A DNA stretch of 64,000 nucleotides, from contig JAFEDS010000016.1 in NCBI GenBank assembly GCA_018241505.1, positions 124,001 through 188,000 on the forward strand. Reading direction: 5' to 3'. The position numbers and the translations under genes were made by a program. Shown one piece after another: positions 40,445 to 61,327 of the stretch; position 1 is the stretch's first letter, and every line of letters starts with the position of its first letter. The notes under the pieces were generated by a model that made no database searches, had not been told where the DNA came from, and worked only from the letters and a program-made list of their open reading frames with translations. Source of the stretch: Pseudomonadota bacterium. GTDB taxonomy: Bacteria > Pseudomonadota > Gammaproteobacteria > Steroidobacterales > Steroidobacteraceae.

Positions 40445-41002
40445 CTAAAGGACCTCGAACACCTGAATCAGGCGGTCATTTTCATTGGCGCCTTTGGCCA
40501 GGCGCATGGAGTCCGGTACCTCCACGAGGTTGGCTAAGAACAAGTGGCTGTTCAGCCATTGATACTTGCCGACGGGGGCGGTGAACTCCGGTGACAGGCG
40601 ATAGTGCCAGTCATCCTTCTTGTCCGAAGGGTAAGCCAACCCTTTGTTGTGAATGATGATGGTGACACCGTCATCGGTGTGTAGCCGGTAGAGTGCGTCG
40701 ATCACCTCAACACCATCGGGGCGCAGCACCGGAAAGTCGCCGCCCCCGGCAATCACTGTGCCCTTGATCCCCTTCCCCTCGAAGCGTCCGCCAATAATCG
40801 GCCAGATCTCCTTACGCGTGCCGTCCTTGCTGTTCGCGCCACCGCCTATCGGGATGGGGTTGCTGCAAGTGACGACTAGCTGCATCACCAACTCGAGGCG
40901 GGGCGCATCCTGGGGCGTCAGCTTCCATTCAGATGACGCCGCGCTCAGGGTCGAACTGCCGGCCAAAGTGAGAATCAATCCAACCTGAAGCGTGCGACGC
41001 AT
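40445..41002 (-). CDS. DUF3237 domain protein, secreted
   Basis: About 185 residues from the ATG at 41002 (GAGG 6-8 bases upstream), with a signal peptide ending near LSAASSEW. DUF3237 marks: IGGRFEGKGIKGTVIAGGGDFPVLRPDG, RLHTDDGVTIIIHNKG and FTAPVGKYQWLNSHLFLA. The family is uncharacterised. It is the last of the twelve-gene amine operon, 8 bases after the molybdopterin oxidoreductase. Its role there is unknown. Confidence 0.8.
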   Translation of the reverse strand: MRRTLQVGLILTLAGSSTLSAASSEWKLTPQDAPRLELVMQLVVTCSNPIPIGGGANSKDGTRKEIWPIIGGRFEGKGIKGTVIAGGGDFPVLRPDGVEVIDALYRLHTDDGVTIIIHNKGLAYPSDKKDDWHYRLSPEFTAPVGKYQWLNSHLFLANLVEVPDSMRLAKGANENDRLIQVFEVL

Positions 41003-41010
41003 GTTGAACC

Positions 41011-43134
41011 TCAGGTCCGCAGGCCGCGCGCGACCGGCAATGTACGAACACGAACGCCGCAAGCCGCGTAGATGGCATTGCAGAGAGCCGCGGCGGCGCC
41101 CGCGGTTCCCGTCTCACCGACGCCGCCCGGCTTCTCGTGATTCTCGATCAGGTAACTCTCAACCCTGGGGGCCTCAGACATTCGCAACGTGCGGAAATCG
41201 TTGAAGTTGCGTTGCTGCACGCGCCCACTTTCAAAGGTGATCTCGTTGTACAGCGCGGCACTCAGGCCGAACATGGTCCCGCCCTCGAGTTGGGCATGCA
41301 CGGTGTCTGGATTGACCAACTGCCCGCAATCGAGAGCACACACCACGCGGTGGACCTTTACATGGCGCGTCGAATCGACTTCAACCTCGACTACCTGGGC
41401 CAGAAAGCTGCCGAAGGCAAACTGAATGGCAATTCCCCTGCCGTGGCCGGCGGGCAACGGTTGAGTCCACCCTGACTTCTCCACCACCAGGTCGAAGACC
41501 GCGCGCATGCGGGCCTCCTTGATCAGGGGGCGGCGGAATTTCACCGGATCGACCTTCGCCTGTGCCGCCAGCTCATCCATGAAGCTTTCGACAACAAAAA
41601 TGCTGCGCGTCGGTCCTACACCGCGCCACCACGATGTTGGCACACCGGGCGGCTCCTCCTGGACGAACCTGACTTCCAGGTTTGGCAAGGCATAGACGGG
41701 GTCCGCGGCAGTATCGATGGCATCGTCGTCGATGCCGTTCTTCAATGGTTCGCCGGAATAGACCGCGGACACGGCTGAGCCTGCAATCGTGTGCATCCAG
41801 GAGGTTGGATGGCCGTTGCCGTCGAGGCCCGCCGAGATCCGGTCGACATAGTACGGACGGTACATGTCGTGTTGGATGTCTTCTTCGCGGCTCCACAGAA
41901 CCTTGACAGGACCTTCCACGTGGCGCGCGATGCGCACCGCATACACGACACCATCCACTTCCAGGCGCCGCCCGAAACCGCCGCCAATGAGCTGATTGTT
42001 GATCCGAATGGTGCCGGGCTCGATTCCGAGCTCCGCGAGCTTGGCAACCGCCCGATCCGGCGCCTGGGTTCCGGTCCAGATCTCGCAAAGGCCCTTCTGC
42101 CAGTGGACCGTGCAATTCATCGGTTCCATGGTGGCATGTGCCAGGAAGGGCTGATGATAAACAGAGTCCACCCTTTGTGCGGCCCGCTTCAGCTCCCCAC
42201 TCGCGTTGCCGACCTTGGAGGCGACCGCGCCCGGACGCTTCACAGCCGCTTCCAGTGCGTTGACGAGCCCTTTCTGGTTGATGGTATCGTGTCGGGATGC
42301 GCCCCAATGAACCGCCAGCGCGCGCATCCCCTTCATGGCGGACCAGGTATCGGTCGCAACGACGGCGACCAGGTCGCCTTCATTAACCACCTGCAATACG
42401 CCTTTGACCGCCAGCGCCGCGTCGGAATTCAATGGCTCGACGGCCTTGGATCCTGACACCGGCGATATCGAAAGCACGGCGACCTTCATTCCCTCCATCT
42501 GTACGTCGATTCCGAAGATCGCGGCGCCGTTGGTTTTTGCCGCGGAGTCGCGCCGCGCGGTGGATCGGCCGATGAGCTTGAACTGACTGGCATTCTTCAG
42601 AGGCGGGTCGGCCGGCACCGTGATTGCAGCCGCCGCGGCCGCAATTTCGCCGTAGCGCAAGTGCCGGCCGGACGCAGAGTGTACAACCTGACCCTGCTCA
42701 GCGTGACAGGTGTCCGGTGCCACGCGCCAACGTTGAGCCGCCGCGCCGATCAGCATCATCCGGGCCGCGGCGCCCGCCTTGCGCAAAGGAATGAAGCACA
42801 GGCGAATCGTTGTTGAGCCGCCGGTCGATTGATCGCCGTCGAAACCGTAGACCTTCGGATCCGCGGGCGCGGCCACCACATCGATCCGATCCAGCGGAAC
42901 TTCCAGCTCTTCAGCTACCAACATAGGCAGGGACGTGTAGGTGCCCTGGCCCATCTCCACCTTCGGCATCACGACCGTGACACGGTCATCCGCACCGACC
43001 TTGATGTAGGCGTTCAACGTTCCGTCGGTAGCCTGCTTGCCTTCGGATGAGCGGGGTAACACCACCTGCAGAAGCAATGCGCCGCCCATCGCCACCGATG
43101 TCCCGATGAAGCTACGACGCGAAAGTGTAGTCAT
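41011..43134 (-). CDS. Xanthine dehydrogenase-family molybdopterin-binding subunit (isoquinoline 1-oxidoreductase beta like)
   Basis: 707 residues with a Tat signal (LSRRSFIGTSVAMGG). The aldehyde-oxidase-type molybdopterin domain shows MPKVEMGQGTYTSLPMLVAEEL, HQPFLAHATMEPMNCTVHW, IGGGFGRRLEVDG and the late catalytic-region VGETGTAGAAAALCNAIYAACG. This is the large subunit of IorAB-type enzymes, which hydroxylate N-heterocycles or oxidise aldehydes. The [2Fe-2S] alpha subunit (IorA) that normally sits next door is missing: the upstream neighbour is the TTQ light chain, 22 bases away. It may oxidise the aldehyde made by the amine dehydrogenase, with electrons leaving through another carrier. 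Confidence 0.85.
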   Translation of the reverse strand: MTTLSRRSFIGTSVAMGGALLLQVVLPRSSEGKQATDGTLNAYIKVGADDRVTVVMPKVEMGQGTYTSLPMLVAEELEVPLDRIDVVAAPADPKVYGFDGDQSTGGSTTIRLCFIPLRKAGAAARMMLIGAAAQRWRVAPDTCHAEQGQVVHSASGRHLRYGEIAAAAAAITVPADPPLKNASQFKLIGRSTARRDSAAKTNGAAIFGIDVQMEGMKVAVLSISPVSGSKAVEPLNSDAALAVKGVLQVVNEGDLVAVVATDTWSAMKGMRALAVHWGASRHDTINQKGLVNALEAAVKRPGAVASKVGNASGELKRAAQRVDSVYHQPFLAHATMEPMNCTVHWQKGLCEIWTGTQAPDRAVAKLAELGIEPGTIRINNQLIGGGFGRRLEVDGVVYAVRIARHVEGPVKVLWSREEDIQHDMYRPYYVDRISAGLDGNGHPTSWMHTIAGSAVSAVYSGEPLKNGIDDDAIDTAADPVYALPNLEVRFVQEEPPGVPTSWWRGVGPTRSIFVVESFMDELAAQAKVDPVKFRRPLIKEARMRAVFDLVVEKSGWTQPLPAGHGRGIAIQFAFGSFLAQVVEVEVDSTRHVKVHRVVCALDCGQLVNPDTVHAQLEGGTMFGLSAALYNEITFESGRVQQRNFNDFRTLRMSEAPRVESYLIENHEKPGGVGETGTAGAAAALCNAIYAACGVRVRTLPVARGLRT

Positions 43135-43156
43135 GGACCAGCTCCCATTGAGCGTT

Positions 43157-43726
43157 CTATTGCTCTTTCATCGCTACGCCGAGGATCCGGGCAGTTGAAC
43201 AGCTATAAGACTGACTCTGAGTCCCGAAACACCAGGTGATCTCATTGTTGGCGGAAGGACGCACCACCGGTCTGTCGCCTTCGTTCCTGTGGCACGGGCA
43301 GCGCCCGCAGGCAGCCCCACCGCAGCAATCATTGTACGAAATAATGTAGTGACGCTCATCCGCCGGGTTGAAACAGGTACCAATCCAGGTAATGGGCGAC
43401 ATCTCGGTCCCCGGCGGGCAGGCGTTCACGGCGCCGCCGCAACAACTGCACAGCGCCCCATCGATCGCGCAGTATCGCCAATAGTCGCAGCTACCGGGAT
43501 CACCCGGATCCTGGGCGGTCCCCGTGTTCAGGGGCGGCCGTTGACCATTTGTCGGTGAAGGAGGCTGAATGTCACCTTTGCCCTCGGCGCCCCGCGCCAC
43601 CGGCAGCAATGGCAGCGCGCCCGCCCCCACCAACAATCGGCCCAATATGCCCAACATTCCCCGCCGGGACGTGCGCCGCGCTACCGATCGGGAAGCTTGC
43701 TCCGCCAAATGATCCAGACGCCGCAT
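43157..43726 (-). CDS. mauA: TTQ amine dehydrogenase light (catalytic) chain, locus 1
   Basis: 189 residues, the beta subunit of a quinoprotein amine dehydrogenase, periplasmic. A long Tat leader (RRTSRRGMLGILGR) precedes the cysteine-rich mature domain with 14 Cys. The two tryptophans that form tryptophan tryptophylquinone are Trp114 (ITWIGTC) and Trp165 (ITWCFG), 51 residues apart, exactly the spacing of Trp57/Trp108 in Paracoccus methylamine dehydrogenase; the catalytic Asp is 133 (YNDCCG). The LCSCCGG cysteine pair is as in aromatic amine dehydrogenase, while WCFG is as in methylamine dehydrogenase, so the substrate class is open. It starts 1 base after the heavy-chain stop. Confidence 0.93.
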   Translation of the reverse strand: MRRLDHLAEQASRSVARRTSRRGMLGILGRLLVGAGALPLLPVARGAEGKGDIQPPSPTNGQRPPLNTGTAQDPGDPGSCDYWRYCAIDGALCSCCGGAVNACPPGTEMSPITWIGTCFNPADERHYIISYNDCCGGAACGRCPCHRNEGDRPVVRPSANNEITWCFGTQSQSYSCSTARILGVAMKEQ

Positions 43727-43727
43727 G

Positions 43728-44870
43728 TTATTTCACCGCCTCCATCATCAGTCCGCCCCGGTGCGCGCTCGCGTCGAGGCTGCGAACGAGATTGCCGTGG
43801 GGAAGTCCATAGACATCGAGCTGGTCGCTCGTTGCAACCAACAGCTCCGGTGTGGGCGTATGGGTAACTTCAACGGACCATCCCGGCCGCACGAGACGCA
43901 AACGGTCGATTCGGGCGTGTGACCGGGAATCGAACACCCAGACCTCGGTTCCGGGCTCCTTGTGACTGCCTTCATGCCCGTCACGTTGCATGATGACGTA
44001 GAGCCTGCCGTCGTCGCCGGCGCCGACGACCTGCATTCCGCTGGGCCGCCAGTTCTCCTTACGGTCCTCTTCGGTGACCAGGCTCCAGGCCGGGAGTACG
44101 TTGGCCGCATTGCCGGTGAAATCGATCGGCTGCATGCGCCCCAAAAAGGTCGGGAAGTAGCGGACGCCCTTGATCTCGGCCGACGCAGTGAACATTGGGT
44201 CGTTGTCCAGATTATTGAAGGCCGTCGACTCCTGGCGGGACTTCACCGCACCCTTGGCGTCGAGCTGCACACTCAACACCGTGCCGCTCGAGCACAGGGA
44301 CGCAAAGCCGCGGGGGCCGGTGCTGTAGGCCAGTGAACAGCCCGGGATCTTCACTTCATTCAGGACTTTTCGTGCCACCAGGTCAACAATGGTCACCGAG
44401 GCGGCCGGTGTGAAGTTGTAGATGAGGGCCAGCCGTTCATCATCCGCAAAGGACATCATTCCCTGCAGTGGAACTATGAGCGCGCGCTTGGCACCCGGCA
44501 ACACCACTTCCCCGACGGGAGACAGCGTGCGCTTGTCATAAATCGTGATGTAATCGGTTCGGGCACCCCGATTTCCCCGCGCCCACACGGTATCCGCAAC
44601 GTACAGCTCCGGCCGATGAGTACCGGCGAGCAGCGTCGCCGATTCATGGCCAGGAAGCTGCCCGATGACCGCACGGCTGTCGGTTCCGACGTCCCGGATT
44701 TCAAACTTGTCGTTCGCGTAGGCCAGGTAGGCCCACGTGCGCGGGTAGGTCTCCGGCAGAGTCAGTACTTTGAGGTCGGAGTCGGAAGGCAGTGGGTTGG
44801 CATACCTCGATGCGCCGGTGTCGGCGAACGCGCAGGTCGCGCCCAGGAAAAGAAGCATCACCTTACGCAT
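43728..44870 (-). CDS. mauB: TTQ amine dehydrogenase heavy chain, locus 1
   Basis: 380 residues from the ATG at 44870; the longer frame to 44921 lies inside the upstream gene. A short signal (MRKVMLLFLGATCAFA) is followed by a seven-bladed-propeller subunit: VADTVWARGNRGARTDYITIYDKRTLSPVGEVVLP and WRPSGMQVVGAGDDGRLYVIMQRDGHEGSHKEPGTEVWVFD are the characteristic amine dehydrogenase large-subunit segments. It supports the TTQ chain and docks the electron acceptor. Its start overlaps the end of the PuuA-like gene by 8 bases, which firmly ties the TTQ enzyme to the gamma-glutamylation genes. Confidence 0.92.
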   Translation of the reverse strand: MRKVMLLFLGATCAFADTGASRYANPLPSDSDLKVLTLPETYPRTWAYLAYANDKFEIRDVGTDSRAVIGQLPGHESATLLAGTHRPELYVADTVWARGNRGARTDYITIYDKRTLSPVGEVVLPGAKRALIVPLQGMMSFADDERLALIYNFTPAASVTIVDLVARKVLNEVKIPGCSLAYSTGPRGFASLCSSGTVLSVQLDAKGAVKSRQESTAFNNLDNDPMFTASAEIKGVRYFPTFLGRMQPIDFTGNAANVLPAWSLVTEEDRKENWRPSGMQVVGAGDDGRLYVIMQRDGHEGSHKEPGTEVWVFDSRSHARIDRLRLVRPGWSVEVTHTPTPELLVATSDQLDVYGLPHGNLVRSLDASAHRGGLMMEAVK

Positions 44871-46218
44871 AGAAATCGAGCTCCCGCGCGGTGATGTCCT
44901 CAAACAAGGTTTCAAACTCACCGCGCTTTAAATGAGCATAGGCCGCGAGATAGCGCTGGGAAAAATAGTCTGCCAGAGTGGGCGAGGCCGACATCCGCTC
45001 GAGCGCAGCCCACAATCCCCGGGGGAAGGTCGGATCGCGTCCGGTCAACGCCTTCCCATCAACAGGTACCGTGGGTTCGAGCGCATGGGTGATGCCGTGA
45101 AGAGCACCCGCCAGAACGGCCGCCACAACCAGATGCGGACTCGCATCCGCACCGGCGACCCGATGCTCGATTCGCATGTCGGCTGCTCCAGCGGCGGGAA
45201 TGCGGAACGCCACGCTGCGATTGTTGTGACCCCATGCGGTCGTATTGGGAACGTACGGTCCCAGGAAGCGCCGGAACGAGTTGAAGTTGGGTGCAAACAG
45301 CGCAAGTGAATCGAACATGAGCGCCTGCATGCCGGCCACTGCCTGGTGCAGCAGCCGGGTGCCACCATCGGCGCCGAAGCGGTTACGGCCGGCTTCATCG
45401 ACGAGGCTGATGTGGATATGCATGCCGTTACCGGGTTGGTCACGGAACGGCTTGGCGATGAAAGTGGCGTCCTCGTTGTTGGCACGGGCAACGCCCCTTA
45501 CCAGCCGGCGCAACAAGGCGGCGTGATCGGCTGCCAGAAGCGGATCGGCCACATGCCGCAGATTCACCTCAAACTGGCCAATGCCGTATTCCGCCACCGC
45601 GCTGCCCAAAGGGATGCCTTGCGCCTGTGCCGCGGTCTCAATCTGCGCCAGAAACGTCGACTGGTCCTCGATACTTTCCAGCGACAGATTGGCCGGGCGG
45701 CTGGGCGCCGCACGGGTGCGAGGATTGGTTGCGAGCCGTAGATGGCCCTGCGGCGTGCGAGCCGAGTCAACCAGGTAGAATTCCAACTCACAGGCAATCA
45801 CGGCGTGAAGGCCGTGCGAACGGCACCTGGCAATGATCTCTTCCAGGATCACCCGCTGATCAAACCATAACGGCTCTTGCGTGCCGTATTCGCGCATGAC
45901 GCACATGACTTGGGCGGTCGGTGTCTTTGCCCACGGCACGCGCACCAGAGTTCCCGCCAGCGGCAATGCAATACCGTCGGGGTCGCCGTCGCTGGCACCG
46001 CGCCCACCGGCATCATGACCGCGCCCCCGGCAATCCAACAGGGGCGCGCAGGCCGAGAATGCCACCCCACTTTTGAAGACCTTCTCAGCCTCCAACATCG
46101 GCACTCGTTTGCCGATCGCGTTACCGTTGACGTCGATCACGAAGGCATCGAGCGATACGATGTCAGGATTCGCCTGCGCGAACCGCCCCAGGTCAGCCAA
46201 TGTCGCAAAGTCGGTCAT
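44863..46218 (-). CDS. Glutamine synthetase-like gamma-glutamylamine synthetase (PuuA-like)
   Basis: About 451 residues (ATG at 46218; a GTG at 46230 overlapping the oxidase stop is possible). Glutamine-synthetase-fold marks: SLDAFVIDVNGNAIGKRVP at the N-terminus, the metal-binding ACELEFYL and EYGIGQFEVNL, GNGMHIHIS, NNRSVAFRIP, and MRIEHRVAGADASPHL. The GKR-type N-terminus and the PuuB-like gene directly upstream fit gamma-glutamylputrescine synthetase and its relatives, which join glutamate to an amine with ATP. It could equally act on another mono- or diamine. It is the only such synthetase in the window, so it would serve both PuuB-like oxidases. Confidence 0.87.
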   Translation of the reverse strand: MTDFATLADLGRFAQANPDIVSLDAFVIDVNGNAIGKRVPMLEAEKVFKSGVAFSACAPLLDCRGRGHDAGGRGASDGDPDGIALPLAGTLVRVPWAKTPTAQVMCVMREYGTQEPLWFDQRVILEEIIARCRSHGLHAVIACELEFYLVDSARTPQGHLRLATNPRTRAAPSRPANLSLESIEDQSTFLAQIETAAQAQGIPLGSAVAEYGIGQFEVNLRHVADPLLAADHAALLRRLVRGVARANNEDATFIAKPFRDQPGNGMHIHISLVDEAGRNRFGADGGTRLLHQAVAGMQALMFDSLALFAPNFNSFRRFLGPYVPNTTAWGHNNRSVAFRIPAAGAADMRIEHRVAGADASPHLVVAAVLAGALHGITHALEPTVPVDGKALTGRDPTFPRGLWAALERMSASPTLADYFSQRYLAAYAHLKRGEFETLFEDITARELDFYA

Positions 46219-46226
46219 GTTCTGTC

Positions 46227-47543
46227 TCACAGCCGGTCGCGCAGCGCGGCGAACGACATTGCAGCAATCAAGGTTGGGGTGCGCAACGCCGGTCCACCCG
46301 GGAAACGCGGCACCGGCGTTTGACTCAACAGGTCAAATTCATCGCGCTCGCCGCTCATTGCATCCGCCATGATTTTCCCGACATAGGGCGCCAATACAAC
46401 CCCCTTCCCCGAGAAGCCGCTGGCATTGAACAGGCCGGGCTGCAGCTCGCGGACATAGGGCATCCGGTTCGGTGTAATGGCCAGCGTACCGCCCCAGCCA
46501 TAATCAATACGAACCGCAGACAGTTGCGGAAACAGGCGCACAATGTGCTTGCGAACGTATTCACCGATACGCTCGGGAAAACGATACGTGTAATTCTCGC
46601 CGCCACCAAACAGAAGGCGGTGGTCCGGAGTCATGCGGAAATAGTAGATCACGAACCGGGAGTCACTGACGGCATAGCCGTTGCGGATCAGTTCGAGCGC
46701 ACCGCGCTCGCCCAATGGCTCGGTGACCGCAATAAAGTTGTTTATCGGCATGACATGGGCGGCAACGTCCGCCGAAAGCCCGCGCAAGTAACCGTTGGCT
46801 GCCAGCAGGACGCTGGCGGCGTTGACGGATGCTTTCGCCGTCGACACGCTCCAACCGGATGACGTACGGGCCAGATTGGTGACCTCGCTTCGTTCATGCA
46901 GCTTTGCGCCGTATTTACGCGCCGCGCGGGCAATTCCCAGAGCGAAGTTCAGTGGATGCAGATGTCCTCCGCGCACATCCAGGGTACCGCCAACATAGGC
47001 CCGGGTCGCGACCAGGTGCTGAATTTCTTCGGCGCCCACCACTCGCAGGCTCTCGTACCCGTAGTTGCGCTGCAAGTGTTCAACGTAATTCCACGAATCG
47101 CGTGCATAGCGCTCTCTATGGTCGGCATGCAGCAGGCCATTGCGCAGATCACAACGGATCGCATGCTCGTTCACGAGCCAATCCAGGTGATCGCGGGCGC
47201 GAAGGGCCAACTGCCACTGCGCTCGGGCATTCTCCATGCCGAAGTGCGACTCGATCCATTGCTGGCCGCGCCGCATGCCCATGTGGACCTGGCCGCCGTT
47301 ACGCCCGGAGGCACCCCACCCCAGAAGCGCTTGCTCCAGGAGGACGACGGAAACACCTCGACGAGCGAGGTGCAACGCGGCAGACAGGCCGGTAAATCCA
47401 CCGCCCACTATGCAAACGTCGCATGTGAGCGTGCCTTCCAGCGGCTCCGCGGTGACGGGCTCGGCAATCGTGGCCGCGTAGTACGACTGAACGTGCTCCG
47501 CACTGGGTGCAAGCGCGTTCTGCGATCCGTTAATAAACATCAT
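46227..47543 (-). CDS. FAD-dependent gamma-glutamylamine oxidase (PuuB-like), copy 1
   Basis: 438 residues of the DAO family. The Rossmann FAD motif is GGGFTGLSAALHL (47-59), followed by the PuuB-type GASGRNGGQ (77-85). A substrate-domain motif DVRGGHLHPLNFALGIARAA and the C-terminal NASGFSGKGVVLAPYVGK complete the fold. PuuB oxidises gamma-glutamylputrescine to the aldehyde with H2O2 release. It is between the cytochrome c gene (ATGA overlap) and the PuuA-like gene (8-base gap). Cytoplasmic, with no signal. Confidence 0.88.
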   Translation of the reverse strand: MMFINGSQNALAPSAEHVQSYYAATIAEPVTAEPLEGTLTCDVCIVGGGFTGLSAALHLARRGVSVVLLEQALLGWGASGRNGGQVHMGMRRGQQWIESHFGMENARAQWQLALRARDHLDWLVNEHAIRCDLRNGLLHADHRERYARDSWNYVEHLQRNYGYESLRVVGAEEIQHLVATRAYVGGTLDVRGGHLHPLNFALGIARAARKYGAKLHERSEVTNLARTSSGWSVSTAKASVNAASVLLAANGYLRGLSADVAAHVMPINNFIAVTEPLGERGALELIRNGYAVSDSRFVIYYFRMTPDHRLLFGGGENYTYRFPERIGEYVRKHIVRLFPQLSAVRIDYGWGGTLAITPNRMPYVRELQPGLFNASGFSGKGVVLAPYVGKIMADAMSGERDEFDLLSQTPVPRFPGGPALRTPTLIAAMSFAALRDRL

Positions 47544-47995
47544 TGGTTGAAGCGAGTGAGCTTTGCAATCAAACGGGCCCGCTCATGGGCCGCTTCAGTG
47601 CGTAACGGGCGGGCACGCAGCCCGGCTATTTCGGCGGCGGCATACGGTTGGAAATCCGGCCTCAGATGGGCGGCATCGAAGCGCCACAACGTCCAGTTGA
47701 GCAACTCGGCCAGATCGGAATCCGACAGGGGTGCCGTGGCGACTCCCGGAACACGCGCCAGGTATTGCCTGCCGCCGGGCACATTGGTGAACCGCGCCAC
47801 CATTCCGGCGAGCGAGGGCGCCGTCTGCATCGAGCCTGACCCATCGGGACGATGACAACCCTGACAGTTGAGAGCCCAATGTTGCCAGGCCAACCGGGGA
47901 TCGGCGACGCCCGGCGGCGGCCCCTCCCCCGGCGTTGCCGCGAGGACGGTTGCGCAAAAGAGGATCAAACACCCGATTACCGCCCGCCGCTGCAT
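47540..47995 (-). CDS. Mono-haem c-type cytochrome, periplasmic
   Basis: About 151 residues from the ATG at 47995, which has GAGGTGG 6 bases upstream. A signal peptide (about 1-20) is followed by one haem motif, CQGCH at 44-48, and candidate axial methionines in SMQTAPSLAGM. The C-terminal helix ends KLTRFNQ. In an operon with a TTQ amine dehydrogenase and no amicyanin or azurin gene, it is the natural electron acceptor. From memory, the Alcaligenes aromatic amine dehydrogenase cluster also carries a small cytochrome c gene. It overlaps the PuuB-like gene by four bases. Confidence 0.82.
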   Translation of the reverse strand: MQRRAVIGCLILFCATVLAATPGEGPPPGVADPRLAWQHWALNCQGCHRPDGSGSMQTAPSLAGMVARFTNVPGGRQYLARVPGVATAPLSDSDLAELLNWTLWRFDAAHLRPDFQPYAAAEIAGLRARPLRTEAAHERARLIAKLTRFNQ

Positions 47996-48005
47996 CAGAA
48001 CCACC

Positions 48006-48890
48006 TCAACGACCCGCGATCGCAGTCTGGGCGCGCATGGCCGAACGCAGCATCGACACGGCGGCGTACGCCACCACCCCGATGACTACCCAACGCAGCA
48101 CAGTCAGATGATCGCCCAGGGTTTTTACGAGCGGGAAAGCCAACAAGGTGCCGCACACGCCGCCGATGGTGAGACCCACCGCCACCGCCGGCGCGAAGCG
48201 CCGCGACTTGAGAAAACCGAGGCTGGCGACTGGAATCAGCACCCCGTCGCTGCCCATCATGATCGGGTAGGCCGCAATGGGGTGCATGCCGAGGAATGCG
48301 AGCAGCGCCATGCTCGGTGCATAGTTGCCGATACCTACACACATCAGGGCACCGAACACGAAGTTGGCGGCAACCGCCACCACGAAGCGCCAGCCCTCCA
48401 GGCCCATCGTAGTACCCGTGGGCGGCAGAATTCCGACATTCGTCAGAGTGAAAAAAAACGCCGCAATCAGCAGCGCCACACCCATGAACACCTGGATGGT
48501 CCGCTGTTTCATGCGGCTGACCAGGCCGGCCCCGATCCAGGCCCCCGCTCCCGCGCTCAACACCATGCACATCAACAACATCGGCTCGACGCTGATGGCG
48601 GTGGTGAACAACATGGAGCTGAAAAAGGAGGGAATGGTGTTGCCGACATTGAGCGTGCCGGGTATCTGGTCGTCGGCGGGACGGCCGCGCAACTTGAACA
48701 GCGCCGTTATCTGCGCGTAGTTGCCGATCCCCAGGGTGTCCAGGAAGTTGGTTCCGACGCCGATGGCGAGATCGCCCGCGGACGGCCGCAAGTCGGCTTT
48801 GCGTCCCCGGGCGGCCTTGATCCAGGCCGCCACGAACACCAGGTTGACCAGCACCAGGCAGCTATACAGGATGAATGTCGGCGACGGCAC
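48006..48890 (-). CDS. TauE/SafE-type (TSUP) membrane permease
   Basis: 294 residues with about eight hydrophobic segments. The TSUP layout of two internally repeated halves is visible: AIGVGTNFLDTLGIGNYAQITALFK near the start and ALMCVGIGNYAPSMALLAFLG in the second half, both with the GIGNYA motif. The family exports or imports small anions such as sulfite or organic acids. The start is a GTG at 48890, the only in-frame choice before a stop. In this operon it may move an oxidation product such as a carboxylate. It is 10 bases from the cytochrome gene. Confidence 0.82.
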   Translation of the reverse strand: MPSPTFILYSCLVLVNLVFVAAWIKAARGRKADLRPSAGDLAIGVGTNFLDTLGIGNYAQITALFKLRGRPADDQIPGTLNVGNTIPSFFSSMLFTTAISVEPMLLMCMVLSAGAGAWIGAGLVSRMKQRTIQVFMGVALLIAAFFFTLTNVGILPPTGTTMGLEGWRFVVAVAANFVFGALMCVGIGNYAPSMALLAFLGMHPIAAYPIMMGSDGVLIPVASLGFLKSRRFAPAVAVGLTIGGVCGTLLAFPLVKTLGDHLTVLRWVVIGVVAYAAVSMLRSAMRAQTAIAGR

Positions 48891-48913
48891 GTTGGCTATT
48901 CTGTGATCCCAGA

Positions 48914-50578
48914 TTAGGGCCCAGGCACGACTTTGCCATCGAGCACGGTGGTGACCACCTTGATGTCCTTGATCTGATCTGACGGCACGGTCAACGGATC
49001 GGCCGACAGGACATTCAGATCGGCCAGCTTGCCGCGCTCAATGGAGCCTTTGAGGTGTTCCTCAAACCCCGAGTATGCGCCATCGATGGTGTAGCTGCGT
49101 ATGGCCTCCTTGATTGAGATCGCTTCGCTGGGTCCGTTGAGCTCTCCGCCCCGCGTCTTGCGCGTCACAATGGTCCACATACTGAAGAACGGACTCATGG
49201 ACTCGGGCATCGAGCCCAGTGAATCCGATGTGCCCGGCGGCCTCAGTCCATGCGCGAGCATGGTTTTGTAGATGAACGGTACCGGCGCTTGCGTCTTGAA
49301 TGCCGCATGTCCGAGATAGATCCAGGCGCCCGTGGGCACCGGAATGACGCCCAGGCGTTTCATGCGGTCGAGTTGCTCGGCAGTGGTGGGGCCTGCCTCC
49401 TGGTTGCCGGCGTGCTCGATCCGATGACGCGGGTCCGGCCGCGGATCTGCTTTCTCCGCCGCCTCATAGGCATCGAGGATCATGTCCTGGGCCTTGTCTC
49501 CCAAGGCATGCGTCCAGACCTGGAAGCCGGCTTTGTGAGCTTTCATGACGATGTCGTTGAGCTCCTGTTGGGTATAACGGACATCGCCCACCCACCTCTG
49601 CCGTTGTCCGGGCGGCTCGTAGCGGACCGCGGATTCCGTCTCGCCATCCACGAACAACTTGATTCCACCCAGCCGCAACCAGTCATCGCCAAAGCCCGTG
49701 CGCGGGCCGTAGTGGATGACGAAGTCGCCGAAAGCGGCCGGCTGCCCGGTCAGAATGATCTGATAGCGCAGGCGTATGGGGAGCTCACCGGCGTCGCGCA
49801 TGTCCTGATAGATCTTCATGCCATCGCCGCTGGGGAAGTCATACACGGTCGTGACTCCCATGCTGCGGAAATACTCCATGACTTCCCTCAGAGACTGCCG
49901 GCGGGCCTCGTAGCTCGGCGCCGGAACCTTGTCGGCCCAGACGCCCGGCATTTCCTGGATTTTCCCGGTGGGCTCGCCCGTCTTGGGGTCCGTGAAGACA
50001 TGCCCTCCCCGCGGCGGCTGGTAGCCTTTCTTGATTCCGAGCTCGCGCAAGGCCGCGGAGTTGAGTATCTGCACGTGCGCGCTCTCGCGCAGGACTACCG
50101 GATTCGCGGGCGCGACGGAATCGAGTTGTTGGCGTGTGGGCAGAGCCTGGCCCCAGCCGCCCGCTCCAACGATCCACTCTCCCTGTTTGGAGGATTTCAC
50201 GCGCGCCTGCACCTTCTGCAGAATCTCAACCACCCCTTTCAAGGGCGGCGCGTGAACATCCAACATCCGGTGGAACGCGGCGATGCCTTCCAGGTGCGTA
50301 TGGGCGTCAATGAAACCCGGCAGGACCGCCTTGCCATTGAGCTTCATTACCTGGGTCTTGGGACCGGCATAGTTCTCGATCTCGGCCGTGCTGCCCACGG
50401 CCAGGATGTGGCCGTCCTTGATGGCAACCGCCTCGGCGATTGTGTCCTTTGCGTCCACCGTGATGACTTTGCCCTGCAGGAGCAGCAGATCGGCGCTTTC
50501 GGCGCCGATGGCACCGGCGGTCAACTGCCCTGCGAGCAGGATCGCCGCCACGGACACCGGGATTCGAGTGCGTCCCAT
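48914..50578 (-). CDS. YtcJ-type amidohydrolase, secreted, in the amine operon
   Basis: 554 residues with a signal peptide (ending GAIGAESAD). The metal motif is FIDAHTHLEG, the middle HALGDKAQ and the closing GKLADLNVLSADP. It is a paralogue of the proteins at 11224 and 63312. The family removes acyl or carbamoyl groups from amides. In this operon it could release the free amine from an N-acylated form before oxidation. Its ATG shares one base with the mauD stop, so it is translationally coupled to the TTQ accessory genes. Confidence 0.87.
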   Translation of the reverse strand: MGRTRIPVSVAAILLAGQLTAGAIGAESADLLLLQGKVITVDAKDTIAEAVAIKDGHILAVGSTAEIENYAGPKTQVMKLNGKAVLPGFIDAHTHLEGIAAFHRMLDVHAPPLKGVVEILQKVQARVKSSKQGEWIVGAGGWGQALPTRQQLDSVAPANPVVLRESAHVQILNSAALRELGIKKGYQPPRGGHVFTDPKTGEPTGKIQEMPGVWADKVPAPSYEARRQSLREVMEYFRSMGVTTVYDFPSGDGMKIYQDMRDAGELPIRLRYQIILTGQPAAFGDFVIHYGPRTGFGDDWLRLGGIKLFVDGETESAVRYEPPGQRQRWVGDVRYTQQELNDIVMKAHKAGFQVWTHALGDKAQDMILDAYEAAEKADPRPDPRHRIEHAGNQEAGPTTAEQLDRMKRLGVIPVPTGAWIYLGHAAFKTQAPVPFIYKTMLAHGLRPPGTSDSLGSMPESMSPFFSMWTIVTRKTRGGELNGPSEAISIKEAIRSYTIDGAYSGFEEHLKGSIERGKLADLNVLSADPLTVPSDQIKDIKVVTTVLDGKVVPGP

Positions 50579-51183
50579 CAGACCTCCCCCGCGGGCGCGC
50601 GCAACTTGCGCGCCTTGATGTACTCCTGCACGGAACTGAGTCCCGTCTCGTGGGCCACAATCAGACTTTCGAGATGCTCGCGCGTGTTCACCAGTCCCTG
50701 CGCAACAATGATCCCGAGCTCGCTGATCAGGACCGCGTAAGGCAGCTTGCCTACGTGGAATGCACGTCCGACGAGCGCGCTGTTGATAAAGCGATCCGCC
50801 GCAATGCCATGCCGCTCGGCCATGGATTGATAGTCGCCATCCTCACCATCGCCCACCAGGATGAGCTCGAGCACCTCGGATTCGGCAAACTTCACCGCCG
50901 TGGGCAACAGGTTCTTGCACACCGGGCAGGTCGGCGAGACAAAAAACAACAGGCGCAACTGCCCCGGCGGCATCGGGCCCGCCACCTCAATGTTGGTTCC
51001 GGCCAGGGTGCGCCCGGAGACTTTTGGCGCCGCTTCACCGGGTTGCGGCCCCTTGGCGATCGCCAATGCGCCTACGGGCGCGATCCGTTCGTGCAAAACG
51101 CCGACCTGACGTGCGAGCGCCAGGACCGCGCCGGCCAGAACGAGAATCGAGACCCAGATCAGGATCTGTGAAATCAATAGCAT
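50578..51183 (-). CDS. mauD: TTQ amine dehydrogenase accessory protein MauD (thioredoxin-like)
   Basis: 201 residues from the ATG at 51183, 4 bases after the mauE stop; the longer frame upstream lies inside mauE. An N-terminal membrane anchor (LLISQILIWVSILVLAGAVLAL) is followed by a thioredoxin fold with CPVC at 86-89 (FFVSPTCPVCKNLLP). MauD is needed for correct disulfide formation in the six- or seven-disulfide light chain. It is strong evidence that the amine dehydrogenase genes in the same operon encode a true TTQ enzyme. The second TTQ locus has no copy and may depend on this one. Confidence 0.92.
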   Translation of the reverse strand: MLLISQILIWVSILVLAGAVLALARQVGVLHERIAPVGALAIAKGPQPGEAAPKVSGRTLAGTNIEVAGPMPPGQLRLLFFVSPTCPVCKNLLPTAVKFAESEVLELILVGDGEDGDYQSMAERHGIAADRFINSALVGRAFHVGKLPYAVLISELGIIVAQGLVNTREHLESLIVAHETGLSSVQEYIKARKLRAPAGEV

Positions 51184-51187
51184 GGTG

Positions 51188-51748
51188 TCAACTCCGGCGT
51201 GCGGCACGGCTGCCGGCGCCCAGCGCCAGTACCTGGCCGAGCGCCTGATACAGAACGAATCCGACCAACCCGGCCGCAATGCCATCAACGAGCTGCAGCG
51301 CGGACCCCTCGGGCACGGTCGCTGCGGTTGCCGCAAGGAACGCCGGCATCAACAGGACCATCAACACGAGGTTCCGGACAATGAGAGCGGGACTCAATTG
51401 CTGGCGCAGCGCGGACTGAAAGCAACCGCAGTCGATTTCACGACGGCCGCGTGCCAGGTTGACCCCCATGGCGAGCATGAACACGGCAAGCAACACGAGC
51501 GCGCAGGTGGCGGCGGAAGCAACAAACCACGGAGTCAGTAGGCCGAGACAGACGTAGATTTCCGTTCCGATCACCGCCCAAGACGCGGGGACCGTGGCAA
51601 GCGCCGGTAACAGACGGTAGTTTGCAACCACTCCGACAAACTCGTCGTAGTGCCGCAGTTTCCCCACGACCGCCCAGCCAAAGACGAGCGCGCCCAGGAT
51701 GCGACCCGCCAGTGCCAGTGACGGGTCCACGGAACCAGGCTCAAACAT
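51188..51748 (-). CDS. mauE: TTQ amine dehydrogenase accessory membrane protein MauE
   Basis: 186 residues from the ATG at 51748, two bases after the cupin stop. Four or five membrane helices are seen (LAGRILGALVFGWAVVGK; WAVIGTEIYVCLGLLTPWF; ATCALVLLAVFMLAMG; LVLMVLLMPAFLAATAA) and the conserved cysteine motif DCGCF, typical of MauE/DoxX-like redox membrane proteins. MauE works with MauD in light-chain maturation. The order E-D matches known mau and aau clusters. Confidence 0.9.
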   Translation of the reverse strand: MFEPGSVDPSLALAGRILGALVFGWAVVGKLRHYDEFVGVVANYRLLPALATVPASWAVIGTEIYVCLGLLTPWFVASAATCALVLLAVFMLAMGVNLARGRREIDCGCFQSALRQQLSPALIVRNLVLMVLLMPAFLAATAATVPEGSALQLVDGIAAGLVGFVLYQALGQVLALGAGSRAARRS

Positions 51749-51750
51749 GA

Positions 51751-52188
51751 TCAGTGGGCTGCTGCGGCCGACTCGTACACCACGTAGTATTTGGTGTAGC
51801 CGGAAGTCGTCCAACGCCCCTTCCAACCCTTGGGAATCGCGACTGCTTCACCGGCTTTCAGCTCGACGACGGAGCCGTCGGCCGAGGTGAGCTTCACACT
51901 GCCGGTGAGGAAGTAGCAGAATTCGTCTTCCGGATAGGAATCGATCGCGGTGTCACTGGGACCGGCCTTGTACAGACCCATCTGCACTTTCTTATCCGCG
52001 GAGCGCAGCATGGTGACATCCGTGGTTGCGCCGTCCTTGCCATTCTCATGCTCCGCATCTTTGCGGTTGAAGACCGGGCCCGCGGCCTCGGCGGCCGTTA
52101 CCTTGACCGGCTTCAAAGCGTTGTCCGCCCAGGCGGAAGTGGCAAGGCAGGCGGCTGCCAGCAGCAGCAGATTGGCTGTTTTCTTCAA
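51751..52188 (-). CDS. Secreted cupin (DUF861/ureidoglycine-aminohydrolase-like)
   Basis: About 145 residues from a TTG at 52188 with GGGGGAC 5 bases upstream, which gives a clean signal peptide (KKTANLLLLAAACLATSAWA). An ATG at 52209 is also in frame but falls in a palindrome. The cupin core has SYPEDEFCYFLTGSVKL, LKAGEAVAIPKGWKG and a C-terminal KYYVVYES strand. Single-domain cupins of this type are often small-molecule-binding or amidohydrolase-like. It is the first gene of the twelve-gene operon. Its exact role is unknown. Confidence 0.78.
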   Translation of the reverse strand: MKKTANLLLLAAACLATSAWADNALKPVKVTAAEAAGPVFNRKDAEHENGKDGATTDVTMLRSADKKVQMGLYKAGPSDTAIDSYPEDEFCYFLTGSVKLTSADGSVVELKAGEAVAIPKGWKGRWTTSGYTKYYVVYESAAAAH

Positions 52189-52207
52189 GGCTGTCCCCCA
52201 TTCACAC

Positions 52208-52223
52208 ATCTGTGATCGCAGAT
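52208..52223. promoter_or_regulatory. Palindrome at the head of the amine operon
   Basis: ATCTGTGATCGCAGAT is palindromic at 14 of 16 positions and lies 20 bases upstream of the cupin TTG, in the 127-bp region divergent from the GntR gene. It is a good candidate operator for that GntR regulator. A matching core (CTGTGATCCCAG) recurs at 48901-48912. Confidence 0.5.
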
Positions 52224-52315: not shown

Positions 52316-53071
52316 ATGGACGCCCGAACTTCCCGAACTCCCCGCCCCGCGAAGGCCAAGACCGCTGCCGCCAAAGCGCGAGCCGGCGGGCCGAAACCAA
52401 CGCCGGTCGGCACGAAGCCCTCGGCCGATGGCAGCGATCTTCTGCATGCGACGGTCTATGGGGAGTTACGCAAGCGCTTCGTGACCGGCCGCGTCATGCC
52501 GGAAAGCCGCTTGTCGACCCGGCGGCTGGCCGCAGAGTTGGGCGTCAGCCAGATGCCCGTCCGCGAGGCGTTGCGCAGACTTGCAGCCGAGGGCGCCGTT
52601 GAAATCCGCTCCAAGCGCAAGATCGCGGTCCCGGAAATGACCTCCACCCGTTTTGACGATCTCCTGCGCTGCCGGATGCTGTTGGAGCCCGAAGCAGCGG
52701 AGGCAGCGTTTCCCTACATCGGCCCTGCCCTGCTGAAGAGGCTGCGCGAAACCGACAAGGGAATGGGCGTAGCGATGCGCACCGGCGATGTGGGTGCCTA
52801 CATGGAAGGCAACTTCAACTTTCACTTCCTGATCTACAGTGCCCAGCCACGGCGCACCCTGGTGCAGCTCATTGAGACATTGTGGCTGCAGTTCGGGCCG
52901 TATATGCGGGTGGTTTACGGGCGGTTCGGCACCGCCAATCTCGTGGATCAACATCGCGTCGCCATTGCCTGCATTGAAGCCGGCGACGCGAAGGGCTTGC
53001 GCGAGGCGATCTCCACGGACATCAGCGACGGCATGGGCCTGATTGGCACGAGCGGTTTCGAACCCGCCTGA
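52316..53071 (+). CDS. GntR-family regulator (FCD/FadR subfamily)
   Basis: 251 residues. A disordered basic N-terminus (about 40 residues, APR-rich) precedes the winged helix: YGELRKRFVTGRVMPESRLSTRRLAAELGVSQMPVREALRRLAAEGAVE. The FCD effector domain (residues about 105-240) contains the usual histidines for a metal or carboxylate ligand (FNFHFLIYS; DQHRVAIACIEAGD). It is divergent from the amine operon and is its likely repressor, with an amine-derived acid as plausible effector. Confidence 0.9.
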   Translation: MDARTSRTPRPAKAKTAAAKARAGGPKPTPVGTKPSADGSDLLHATVYGELRKRFVTGRVMPESRLSTRRLAAELGVSQMPVREALRRLAAEGAVEIRSKRKIAVPEMTSTRFDDLLRCRMLLEPEAAEAAFPYIGPALLKRLRETDKGMGVAMRTGDVGAYMEGNFNFHFLIYSAQPRRTLVQLIETLWLQFGPYMRVVYGRFGTANLVDQHRVAIACIEAGDAKGLREAISTDISDGMGLIGTSGFEPA

Positions 53072-53155: not shown

Positions 53156-54463
53156 ATGCATCGTGGAGCGGTGAACGCAAATCGTTGTCTGTGGTCGGCC
53201 ACGGCCGGCGAGCCACTCATATTTCCCAGGCTCGCCGCTGATGTCAGAACGCAGGTGGCGATCATCGGTGCGGGGTACACCGGCCTGTCGACGGCGCTTC
53301 ACTTGGCGAAGTCGGGCATCTCCGCCGTGGTATTGGAGGCCCTTCACATCGGCGCGGGCGGCTCGGGCCTGAACGGCGGCCAGGTCATACCGGGTGTCAA
53401 ACACGATCCTGACAGGGTCGAAACCATGTTCGGCGCAGCAGCGGGCGCAAAGCTCGTGGCTACTGTCGCGGCGGGCGCGGACCTGGTGTTCGATCTCATC
53501 AATGAGCACGGCATTCAATGCGATGCCATGCGCACGGGCTGGCTACAACTAGCGAACACCGAAGAAGCAACTCACACCACGTCACAGCGTGCGCAGCAGT
53601 GGAAAAAGCGGGGTGCTCGTGTCGAGATACTCACGCGGGATCGAGTCGCCCAATTGACAGGCTCCGAATGCTATCGAGGCGGCTGGATCGACTACCGCGG
53701 CGGAACGGTGCAGCCGCTTTCCTATCTTCGCGGGCTGGCGGAAGCAGCGCGACGCCTGGGAAGTTCGCTGTTTGAGCACAGCGCTGCGCGCCGCTTGCAT
53801 CGTTCGGGGGAGGATTGGCGTGTCGAGACGGCCCAAGGCAGCGTGACGAGCCGCCAACTCATTCTGGCCACGGATGCGTTTTCGGGGTCCCTGGTACCCG
53901 CGGTCCGGCGCTCAATGGTGCTGGTGCCCTCATTCCAGGTCGCCACGGCGCCCCTGTCCCCCGACCTGTTGCAATCAATCCTGCCGCAGCGGCAATCGGC
54001 GTCCGACACCAAACAACTGTTGCGCTACTTCCGGTTGGACTCAACCGGGCGGCTGCTCCTGGGCACACGCGGCCTGTTCGGTGAGGCGCCTGTCGATGTG
54101 CAGGTCCGCGATCACCGCCGGGCGGTGGCTGAGATTTATCCGCAATTGCGCGCAATCCCTTTCGAGTATCACTGGGGTGGCCCCGTCTCAGTCACATCAG
54201 ACAGTCTGCCGCGGTTGCACGAGGTCGAACCCGGATTGTTGACGGCATTTGGATACAACGGCCGTGGAGTTGCCATGGCGACGGTGATGGGAAGGCTGCT
54301 GGCACAGTGGGCGGCGGGTGACGACCCTTCCAACCTGGGATTCCCCGTGACTCAACCGCGGCCACTGCCGCTGCATGCGTTCAGTCAGATCGGTGCACGG
54401 ATTGCCGTGCAGTATTTTCGGGCGAAGGACGGTATTGCCCGGTGGCGAAGCCGTTCGGCCTAA
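53156..54463 (+). CDS. FAD-dependent gamma-glutamylamine oxidase (PuuB-like), copy 2
   Basis: 435 residues, ATG at 53156 with GGAAG upstream. The FAD motif is GAGYTGLSTALHL (38-50), followed by GAGGSGLNGGQ; the substrate domain has DYRGGTVQPLSYLRGLAEAA and the C-terminus FGYNGRGVAMATVMG. It is clearly a paralogue of the oxidase at 46227 but diverged, so it probably prefers a different gamma-glutamyl amine. It has its own promoter with the GTATCG palindrome and belongs to the presumed IclR regulon. Its end overlaps the convergent iclR gene by four bases. Confidence 0.87.
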   Translation: MHRGAVNANRCLWSATAGEPLIFPRLAADVRTQVAIIGAGYTGLSTALHLAKSGISAVVLEALHIGAGGSGLNGGQVIPGVKHDPDRVETMFGAAAGAKLVATVAAGADLVFDLINEHGIQCDAMRTGWLQLANTEEATHTTSQRAQQWKKRGARVEILTRDRVAQLTGSECYRGGWIDYRGGTVQPLSYLRGLAEAARRLGSSLFEHSAARRLHRSGEDWRVETAQGSVTSRQLILATDAFSGSLVPAVRRSMVLVPSFQVATAPLSPDLLQSILPQRQSASDTKQLLRYFRLDSTGRLLLGTRGLFGEAPVDVQVRDHRRAVAEIYPQLRAIPFEYHWGGPVSVTSDSLPRLHEVEPGLLTAFGYNGRGVAMATVMGRLLAQWAAGDDPSNLGFPVTQPRPLPLHAFSQIGARIAVQYFRAKDGIARWRSRSA

Positions 54464-60802: not shown

Positions 60803-61327
60803 ATGGGAACACTCGATCGATGGTGCGAAAAGAGCGCCCGCCAGCTTGCTCGCCGCACGTCCAGGCGCAGTCTGCTGGCGTCATTGAGTCGAATGCTGAC
60901 AGGGGCGGCGCTGCTGCCGCTGTTGCCAATCGACCGTTCGTTCGGTGCTGAGCCGGCGGCTGCCGATGCGCATGCTGCTGTAACCGACGATCAGCAAAAC
61001 TGCGCGTACTGGAAGTATTGCGCCATTGACGGCTTCCTATGCTCCTGTTGCGGCGGAAGCTCGCATTCCTGCCCGCCGGGTACGACGCCGTCGCCCATCA
61101 CCTGGGTGGGGACTTGCCGCAATCCCGGTGACGGGAAGGATTACCTGGTGTCGTATAACGATTGTTGCGGCAAAGCGAGCTGCGGAAATTGTCAGTGCGT
61201 GCGCAATGAACGCGAAAAGCCGATGTATCGCATGGCGCGTAACAACGACTTGAACTGGTGCATGGCGAACGCGGACTCAAACTATCATTGTTCGGTGTCG
61301 GTCATGCTCGGGCCGGTCGAGAAGTGA
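60803..61327 (+). CDS. mauA: TTQ amine dehydrogenase light (catalytic) chain, locus 2
   Basis: 174 residues with a Tat leader (RRTSRRSLLASLSR). It has 14 Cys. The TTQ tryptophans are Trp101 (ITWVGTC) and Trp152 (LNWCMAN), 51 apart, with the catalytic Asp120 in YNDCCGK. FLCSCCGG, SCGNCQC and NWCMANADSNYHC are close to the Alcaligenes aromatic amine dehydrogenase beta chain, closer than the locus 1 chain is. Activity on aralkylamines such as tyramine or phenethylamine is therefore more likely here. It ends 27 bases from the convergent flavoprotein gene. Confidence 0.93.
   Translation: MGTLDRWCEKSARQLARRTSRRSLLASLSRMLTGAALLPLLPIDRSFGAEPAAADAHAAVTDDQQNCAYWKYCAIDGFLCSCCGGSSHSCPPGTTPSPITWVGTCRNPGDGKDYLVSYNDCCGKASCGNCQCVRNEREKPMYRMARNNDLNWCMANADSNYHCSVSVMLGPVEK

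Follow-up and report, generated by a model that had tools for sequence, protein, structure and literature searches.

A twelve-gene run that joins TTQ amine dehydrogenase genes to a PuuB/PuuA-like pair in a Steroidobacteraceae genome

Why do genes for a tryptophan tryptophylquinone (TTQ) amine dehydrogenase share one gene run with relatives of puuB and puuA, genes of the gamma-glutamylation pathway? The question is raised by a 64-kb stretch of a Steroidobacteraceae genome (assembly GCA_018241505.1, contig JAFEDS010000016.1, positions 124,001 to 188,000), hereafter the window, whose own numbering is used throughout. An initial annotation had read twelve genes of the window as one operon in which periplasmic deamination and cytoplasmic gamma-glutamylation form a single programme. 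We concluded from trees of the genes that the operon (site A) is very probably a mosaic. We gave about even chances to the reading that it serves to break down primary amines in two compartments, the likeliest substrates being diamines or monoamines that polyamine catabolism sets free. The run extends on the minus strand from 52209 down to 40445, in the order given by the annotation (the cluster types named here are those of the family TTQ sites sorted below):

51751..52209, minus strand: secreted EutQ-like cupin, first gene of the operon (Cupin_3, 48.7 bits; leader by eye)
51188..51748, minus strand: mauE, a membrane protein (Pfam MauE, 87.8 bits; in the tree with type I, support 0.98)
50578..51183, minus strand: mauD, thioredoxin-like (44% identity to mauD of site E; in the tree with type I)
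48914..50578, minus strand: Amidohydro_3 metal-dependent hydrolase, probably secreted (PF07969, 282.8 bits; leader by eye)
48006..48890, minus strand: TSUP/TauE-type membrane transporter (PF01925, 39.1 bits)
47540..48004, minus strand: mono-haem c-type cytochrome, probable electron acceptor (Cytochrom_C, 25.7 bits; one CxxCH by eye)
46227..47543, minus strand: PuuB-like FAD oxidoreductase of the DAO family (PF01266, 250.6 bits)
44863..46218, minus strand: PuuA-like ligase of the glutamine synthetase (GS) fold (Gln-synt_C, 268.3 bits)
43728..44870, minus strand: mauB, TTQ dehydrogenase large subunit (PF06433, 126.3 bits)
43157..43726, minus strand: mauA, TTQ dehydrogenase small subunit (PF02975, 165.7 bits; twin-arginine-like leader by eye)
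41011..43134, minus strand: molybdopterin aldehyde-type oxidoreductase, large subunit (MoCoBD_1/2; twin-arginine-like leader by eye)
40445..41002, minus strand: DUF3237 protein, last gene of the operon (PF11578, 85 bits)

With refined starts, the spacings from the cupin gene to the DUF3237 gene were 2, 4, -1, 23, 1, -4, 8, -8, 1, 22 and 8 bases. These values, from -8 to +23 with three overlapping gene pairs, bear out the annotated picture of twelve same-direction genes, several of them overlapping and none more than 23 bases from the next. The annotated overlap of the puuA-like stop with the mauB start measured 8 bases (44863 and 44870). Starts were re-chosen by coding score for mauE (51748), mauD (51183), PuuA (46218), mauB (44870) and DUF3237 (41002), all of which were too long in the raw list of open reading frames. 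Pfam families scored above their cut-offs for eleven of the twelve genes (Cupin_3, MauE, Amidohydro_3, TauE, Cytochrom_C, DAO, Gln-synt_C, Me-amine-dh_H, Me-amine-dh_L, MoCoBD_1/2 and DUF3237), and mauD, with no Pfam match at E 0.001, was recognised by similarity and by its tree. The annotated gene names therefore stood, except that several raw starts were too long and that the names puuA and puuB apply only loosely. It is from spacing alone that we infer a single transcript. A consensus scan, which we count among the points against the proposed unit, gave numbers of promoter-like and terminator-like sites within the range of shuffled sequence (2 versus 3.0; 13 versus 9.6, standard deviation 3.6). 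The operon strand carried no site resembling a promoter, and the TSUP gene contained a terminator-like site with a T run (48477-48457).

What does the TTQ half encode? MauA had the cysteine-rich pattern of the small subunit and matched the light chain of methylamine dehydrogenase (MADH; 3c75) over its full length (E 2.7e-51). Its residues W114 and W165 were invariant across the six MauA copies of the genome and aligned with tryptophans of the solved chains of MADH and aromatic amine dehydrogenase (AADH), which we take to be the TTQ-forming tryptophans of those enzymes. MauA narrowly missed the NCBIfam model of the MADH small subunit (186.2 versus 196.85 bits), and MauB reached 128.4 of the 454.45 bits needed in the MADH equivalog model. 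As expected of a TTQ system, the large-subunit gene adjoined that of the small subunit (spacing of 1 base), and the assembly genes mauE (by Pfam) and mauD (by similarity and tree) were both in the operon; MauE presumably acts in disulfide formation of the small subunit, with MauD as its thioredoxin-like partner. PF03150 (CCP_MauG) had no match on the contigs that carry TTQ sites (C7, the contig of the window, C8, C17 and C4) and six matches on contigs without such sites. We also considered a flavoprotein exported by the twin-arginine pathway as a substitute for MauG and rejected it: the 640-residue flavoprotein that recurs near TTQ sites is a homologue of spermidine dehydrogenase (SpdH) that also occurs at PuuA loci without TTQ genes.

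The molybdenum enzyme had as its nearest solved chain 8gy3_C, named 'large subunit of aldehyde dehydrogenase' (E 1.3e-63). A search of the window for its [2Fe-2S] partner, with IorA of locus L243 as the query, gave no match. Among 100 TTQ sites of the family, 22 had a molybdenum enzyme. Ten of these were type I sites, where the enzyme was 36-37% identical to that of the window and had a [2Fe-2S] partner gene; the other twelve lacked the partner gene, and their enzymes were 60-71% identical to that of the window in eleven cases and 36% in one (L213). Within the stretches read, large subunits of the xanthine dehydrogenase family without a [2Fe-2S] subunit gene were noted in the window (41011-43134) and at the type II loci L226, L230 and L236.

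The Puu half consists of two genes, the PuuB-like gene lying 8 bases upstream of puuA. The former was assigned to the DAO family, with no specific PuuB model, and PuuA scored 160.1 bits against the gamma-glutamylputrescine synthetase model NF045547, where 650 are needed. Judged by these profiles, the PuuA and PuuB of the window are related to the E. coli enzymes but are not their equivalogs. PuuA lacks the glutamate that the GlnA-like protein of this genome (L019) has in the loop before 'AP', and given the role of this residue its absence is in keeping with ligation of an amine and not of ammonia. None of PuuC, PuuD, PuuE and PuuP was among the twelve genes. A PuuD relative (the best PF07722 match) adjoins another GS-like gene on contig C8 (448283-450389), and this pair is probably the ordinary puu cluster of the genome.

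Does the combination occur elsewhere? Family searches gave 124 TTQ matches outside the source genome (summed by hand); 100 of their neighbourhoods were fetched on purpose, and two more came by way of PuuA loci. Many stretches stop at contig edges, so that the neighbour counts are lower bounds and the absences weak. In the searches for PuuA, TTQ and SpdH the number of first-look candidates scored in each genome was limited, and neighbours were counted at 40% identity (30% for the TonB receptor and the molybdenum enzyme). Sorted by best-matching mauB, the 100 sites comprised 38 of type II, 32 of type III, 17 of type I, seven of the C8 type and six that were unclear. Their partners included a DAO of the second kind (that at 53156-54463) at 40 sites, a TSUP transporter at 35, SpdH at 11 and a beta-alanine-type aminotransferase at nine. 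No GS-fold ligase with at least 40% identity to the PuuA of site A (PuuA1) was found at any of the 100, and one reached 33% (L265). PuuA1 had no match at E 1e-6 at 20 TTQ sites elsewhere in the order, and, outside the family, no relative at 40% in the best 80 of at least 573 mauA loci of the public genome set. These 80 loci were mostly aau-like; mauD and a cytochrome were each present in 76.

Seen from the other half, PuuA1 orthologues (E <= 1e-110) occurred in 37 of 217 family genomes including the source genome, and PuuA1 was 49-61% identical to those of the 36 others. There was none in the 368 other genomes of a class sample, which held only two more genomes of the family. The neighbours at the 36 other loci were PuuB (34), GntR (25), a polyamine-type aminotransferase (24), SpdH (21), a TonB receptor (18) and mauA (2), and the usual cassette order was SpdH, aminotransferase, GntR, PuuB, PuuA. 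We know of no published name for this cassette, for which no separate search was made. The aminotransferase of one such locus (L136) matched putrescine and polyamine:pyruvate transaminases. The GntR regulator beside site A was 59-74% identical to cassette GntR, and the PuuB of site A was mostly 57-65% identical to cassette PuuB.

PuuBA inside a TTQ operon was seen in the source genome only, within the sets searched. The annotation had named an arrangement confined to a single genome as a result that would refute its reading, and this is what the searches showed, as far as they reached: a GS-fold ligase was at none of the 100 family TTQ sites, and mauA at two of the 36 PuuA loci. The statement that known mau clusters lack Puu enzymes was too strong, as there are partial precedents. 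In G099 and G100 a PuuBA cassette lies about 5 kb from a TTQ site, in separate operons; in a Sandarakinorhabdus locus (L038) a PuuB-like gene (43%) stands, at the edge of its contig, next to TetR, mauB, mauA and a cytochrome; and four sphingomonad loci, described below, have a GS-like gene. The annotation knew of no described pathway with this set, and literature searches by title and abstract gave no paper that links TTQ and Puu.

From where, then, did the genes come? We made quick trees, with FastTree on all rows and with IQ-TREE on samples of rows, the latter with the Shimodaira-Hasegawa-like approximate likelihood ratio test (SH-aLRT) and approximately unbiased (AU) tests. In the FastTree trees, mauB, mauA and the cytochrome of site A fell with C8-type clusters (supports 1.0, 0.87 and 0.80), mauD and mauE with type I (0.996 and 0.98), and both the TSUP transporter and the molybdenum enzyme with rows of type II (0.92 and 0.99), the latter grouping with the eleven partner-less relatives of 60-71% identity. 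PuuB and the GntR of the window had cassette rows as their nearest relatives. For the cupin, the other loci collected for the trees gave no match at E <= 1e-8; at E <= 1e-6 there was one weak match of 31% (in L029). IQ-TREE recovered, for mauB, a branch shared with eight C8-type rows and the C8 copy of the same genome (SH-aLRT 100); for mauD, a branch shared with nine rows of type I (97); and for PuuB, one shared with eight rows from the cassette (100). Holding mauB with type I cost 443 log-likelihood units, compared to 150 for that type alone, and holding it with type II cost 338 versus 31. The corresponding costs for mauD were 120 versus 18 with the C8 type and 141 versus 29 with type II, and for PuuB with the type II DAO they were 424 versus 37. 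When mauD was held with type I, the cost dropped from 98 to 20. The AU tests rejected most placements of a site A gene with another cluster type, but for several groups the p-values are inflated, because those types fail to form clades even when the site A gene is left out. Where type I does form a clade, the tests rejected the molybdenum enzyme with type I (p = 2.5e-12) and PuuB with the type I DAO (p = 2.5e-5).

Some tree results weigh against a clear-cut picture. The placement of mauD with all type I rows was also rejected (p = 0.032), and control groups without the site A gene were not clades (p = 2.5e-73 for type I mauB, 4.5e-6 for type I mauD, and 0.0006 to 0.03 for others). The TSUP transporter was weakly placed (C8 type, p = 0.004; type I, p = 0.097, not rejected). 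PuuA1 was nearest to cassette PuuA, yet it lay beside distant GS paralogues and outside most cassette PuuA (0.97, in an unrooted tree). Because the AU controls were rejected too, we rested the mosaic on the supported branches and the extra likelihood cost. On this footing four source types are supported: C8-type clusters for mauBA and the cytochrome, type I for mauED, type II for the molybdenum enzyme, and the SpdH cassette for PuuB and, less clearly, PuuA. The operon is also an example of how parts of several related gene clusters can come to form one catabolic unit.

Do the halves belong together in function? A combination known from one genome may be a chance assembly, and this counts against a shared role. 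A rearrangement within an amine-catabolic island could have put PuuBA into a mau operon, with the two halves functionally independent, under a common promoter and with different substrates. This account is consistent with the restriction to the source genome among the sets searched, with the different origins of the genes, and with the other partners found at the other five TTQ sites of the genome. It fits poorly with the tight spacing on both sides of PuuA, with the intact reading frames, and with the retention of the GntR of the PuuBA cassette beside the operon, and we consider it improbable. We lean, slightly, toward a shared programme of the two halves.

Under a shared programme, MauBA would deaminate an amine to the aldehyde in the periplasm and pass electrons to the cytochrome, and the molybdenum enzyme would oxidise the aldehyde to the acid. 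Amine that reaches the cytoplasm would be glutamylated by PuuA and oxidised by PuuB, and the later Puu steps would come from genes elsewhere, such as the PuuD relative on contig C8. The operon is probably under the control of the divergent GntR, a protein with an orthologue in the SpdH-PuuBA cassette of relatives. The annotated view of TTQ and Puu as one unit holds to the extent that one compact run contains the TTQ dehydrogenase, its assembly genes and a ligase/flavin oxidase pair; it does not extend to the later Puu enzymes, which lie outside the operon.

The substrate is a separate matter. The solved TTQ enzymes that we matched were methylamine and aromatic amine dehydrogenases only. A rival reading is an aralkylamine operon of the aau kind, in which PuuA and PuuB, in the manner of the gamma-glutamylanilide and isopropylamine ligases, glutamylate and oxidise a related aromatic or monoalkyl amine and polyamines play no part. 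In keeping with this, mauBA and the cytochrome fall in the trees with C8-type clusters, which are aau-like, and the solved chain nearest to MauB is that of AADH (2i0s), a point against a polyamine substrate. Moreover, the sphingomonad loci L035, L037, L053 and L098, which are aau-like, have a GS-like gene (about 30% identical to PuuA1) and an aldehyde dehydrogenase (ALDH) gene upstream of TetR and mauBEDA, and three of the four have a P450-like gene (by eye). The PuuA paralogues of P. aeruginosa are also reported to differ in their amine specificity (PMC9397018). On the other hand, the orthologues of PuuB and GntR sit with SpdH and polyamine-type aminotransferases in relatives, and the TTQ sites of the family are linked to SpdH, as shown below. 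We regard an aralkylamine operon as unlikely, and a polyamine-derived substrate as plausible, with chances that we put somewhat under even.

The further features of the window are:

52316..53071, plus strand: GntR/FCD regulator, divergent from the operon and its candidate regulator (GntR and FCD domains)
53156..54463, plus strand: second DAO oxidase, related to the DAO found alongside TTQ clusters (PF01266; 58% to the DAO of site E)
57870-59648, plus strand: gamma-glutamyltranspeptidase of the second TTQ site (Pfam)
59666-60793, plus strand: mauB2 (Pfam; 17 bases after the transpeptidase gene)
60803-61327, plus strand: mauA2 (Pfam; 9 bases after mauB2)
61355..63304, minus strand: SpdH homologue in convergent orientation to mauA2 (E 1.3e-143 to SpdH 7d9i by phmmer)

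The genome (7.88 Mb) has six mauA genes with differing partners. In addition to site A, the window holds site B, with the gamma-glutamyltranspeptidase, mauB2, mauA2 and the convergent SpdH. Site C, 10 kb further, has an SpdH gene overlapping mauB3, then mauA3 and a divergent aminotransferase, a homologue of beta-alanine:pyruvate transaminase (E 8.7e-141). The remaining sites are on contigs C8, C17 and C4. Among the matches listed, a TTQ small subunit was present in 86 of 217 family genomes, with at most three copies outside the source genome. A match was found in 112 of 396 genomes of an order sample and in 13 of 398 of a phylum sample (12 above the cut-off), two samples that overlap, and none listed had more than three copies. 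The operon might be an assembly chimera or come from a contaminant, and the contamination estimate is 5.67%. However, the window contig is 825 kb long, and 20-kb stretches at the other TTQ sites had a GC content of 0.61-0.63 and tetranucleotide correlations with the window of 0.94-0.97, whereas six stretches from other genomes, 16-21 kb in length, gave correlations of 0.69-0.82. This shared composition speaks against contamination as the source of the six copies. Two 4.3-kb stretches of the same genome without TTQ genes gave only 0.79 and 0.81, values indicating that the measure depends on length. We consider an artefact very improbable. A plasmid origin was dropped, as megablast gave no match in the plasmid collection.

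Are TTQ sites tied to polyamine breakdown? In 56 family genomes with both kinds of gene, 15 of 95 TTQ sites had an SpdH homologue (E <= 1e-100) within 10 kb, versus 0.97 pairs expected by random placement; this count, which treats related genomes as independent (a point against the reading), was made by matching the TTQ and SpdH lists by eye and includes three sites of the source genome. SpdH homologues also lay within 10 kb of four of the 20 TTQ sites elsewhere in the order. The TTQ-SpdH link is the most useful wider result of this work. 1,3-Diaminopropane is reported to be a product of SpdH (PMC12564564, PMC9397018). The beta-alanine:pyruvate transaminase homologue at site C, with relatives at nine of the 100 family TTQ sites, fits 1,3-diaminopropane, and the transaminase and the molybdenum oxidoreductase at TTQ sites (many of type I and II, and site A) fit a periplasmic chain from amine to aldehyde to acid.

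Further points count against a polyamine role for site A itself. As noted, PuuA and PuuB fell far below their equivalog cut-offs in NCBIfam. SpdH, the aminotransferase, a polyamine permease, PuuC and PuuD are absent from site A, and neither SpdH nor the aminotransferase was seen in the fetched stretches of the seven C8-type family clusters, which are closest to its mauBA. Still, six copies beside differing hydrolases and oxidases, together with the SpdH link in the family, point to a broader use of TTQ enzymes on polyamine-derived amines. Tentatively, and with more doubt than for the substrate alone, we suggest that TTQ dehydrogenases may have an undescribed polyamine role, in which the TTQ systems of the family would act with periplasmic SpdH and a molybdenum aldehyde oxidoreductase, one of them being wired here into an operon with cytoplasmic gamma-glutamylation.

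How does the operon compare with known systems? With the aau cluster of Alcaligenes and aau-like mauB-E-D-A-cytochrome clusters it shares MauB, MauE, MauD, MauA, a small mono-haem cytochrome and the lack of a mauG-family match on the contig. Whereas many relatives keep the order B-E-D-A, here it is broken, with mauED near the head and mauBA near the end (mauE-mauD-amidohydrolase-TSUP-cytochrome c-puuB-puuA-mauB-mauA), and PuuBA, the molybdenum oxidoreductase, the amidohydrolase, the TSUP transporter, the cupin and the DUF3237 protein are additions. The operon resembles the methylamine (mau) cluster in the full-length match of MauA to the MADH light chain, but its MauB is below the MADH model cut-off and the TTQ contigs have no MauG gene. 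As in the Puu pathway, a GS-fold ligase without the GlnA loop glutamate stands beside a DAO-type oxidase; unlike that pathway, the ligase is not an equivalog and PuuC, PuuD, PuuE and PuuP are not among the twelve genes. Compared with the SpdH-aminotransferase-GntR-PuuB-PuuA cassette of the family, PuuB and GntR are orthologous and PuuA is nearest to cassette PuuA, but the operon has TTQ genes in place of SpdH and the aminotransferase, the SpdH of the window being at 61355-63304.

Several minor observations concern the other sites. The genome has ten SpdH matches, two of them pieces of one reading frame, and five SpdH places (C4, C17 and three on C7) are within about 5 kb of TTQ sites. Within the SpdH gene of the window, ARAGORN called a 97-base tRNA-Gly on the minus strand (62090-62186), probably a false positive. 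The gamma-glutamyltranspeptidase encoded 17 bases upstream of mauB2-mauA2 might free amines from gamma-glutamyl amines in the periplasm, and the TTQ enzyme would then deaminate them. We rejected this enzyme as a general TTQ partner: it occurs beside mauB2 and near the C17 site, but at >=40% identity at only one of the 100 family sites. Lastly, on contig C8 (L007, 13340-19437), penicillin-amidase-like and carboxylesterase-like genes (by eye) lie upstream of mauB and mauA, which at 63% and 73% identity are the nearest to those of site A, and this set may form a module from amide to amine to aldehyde.

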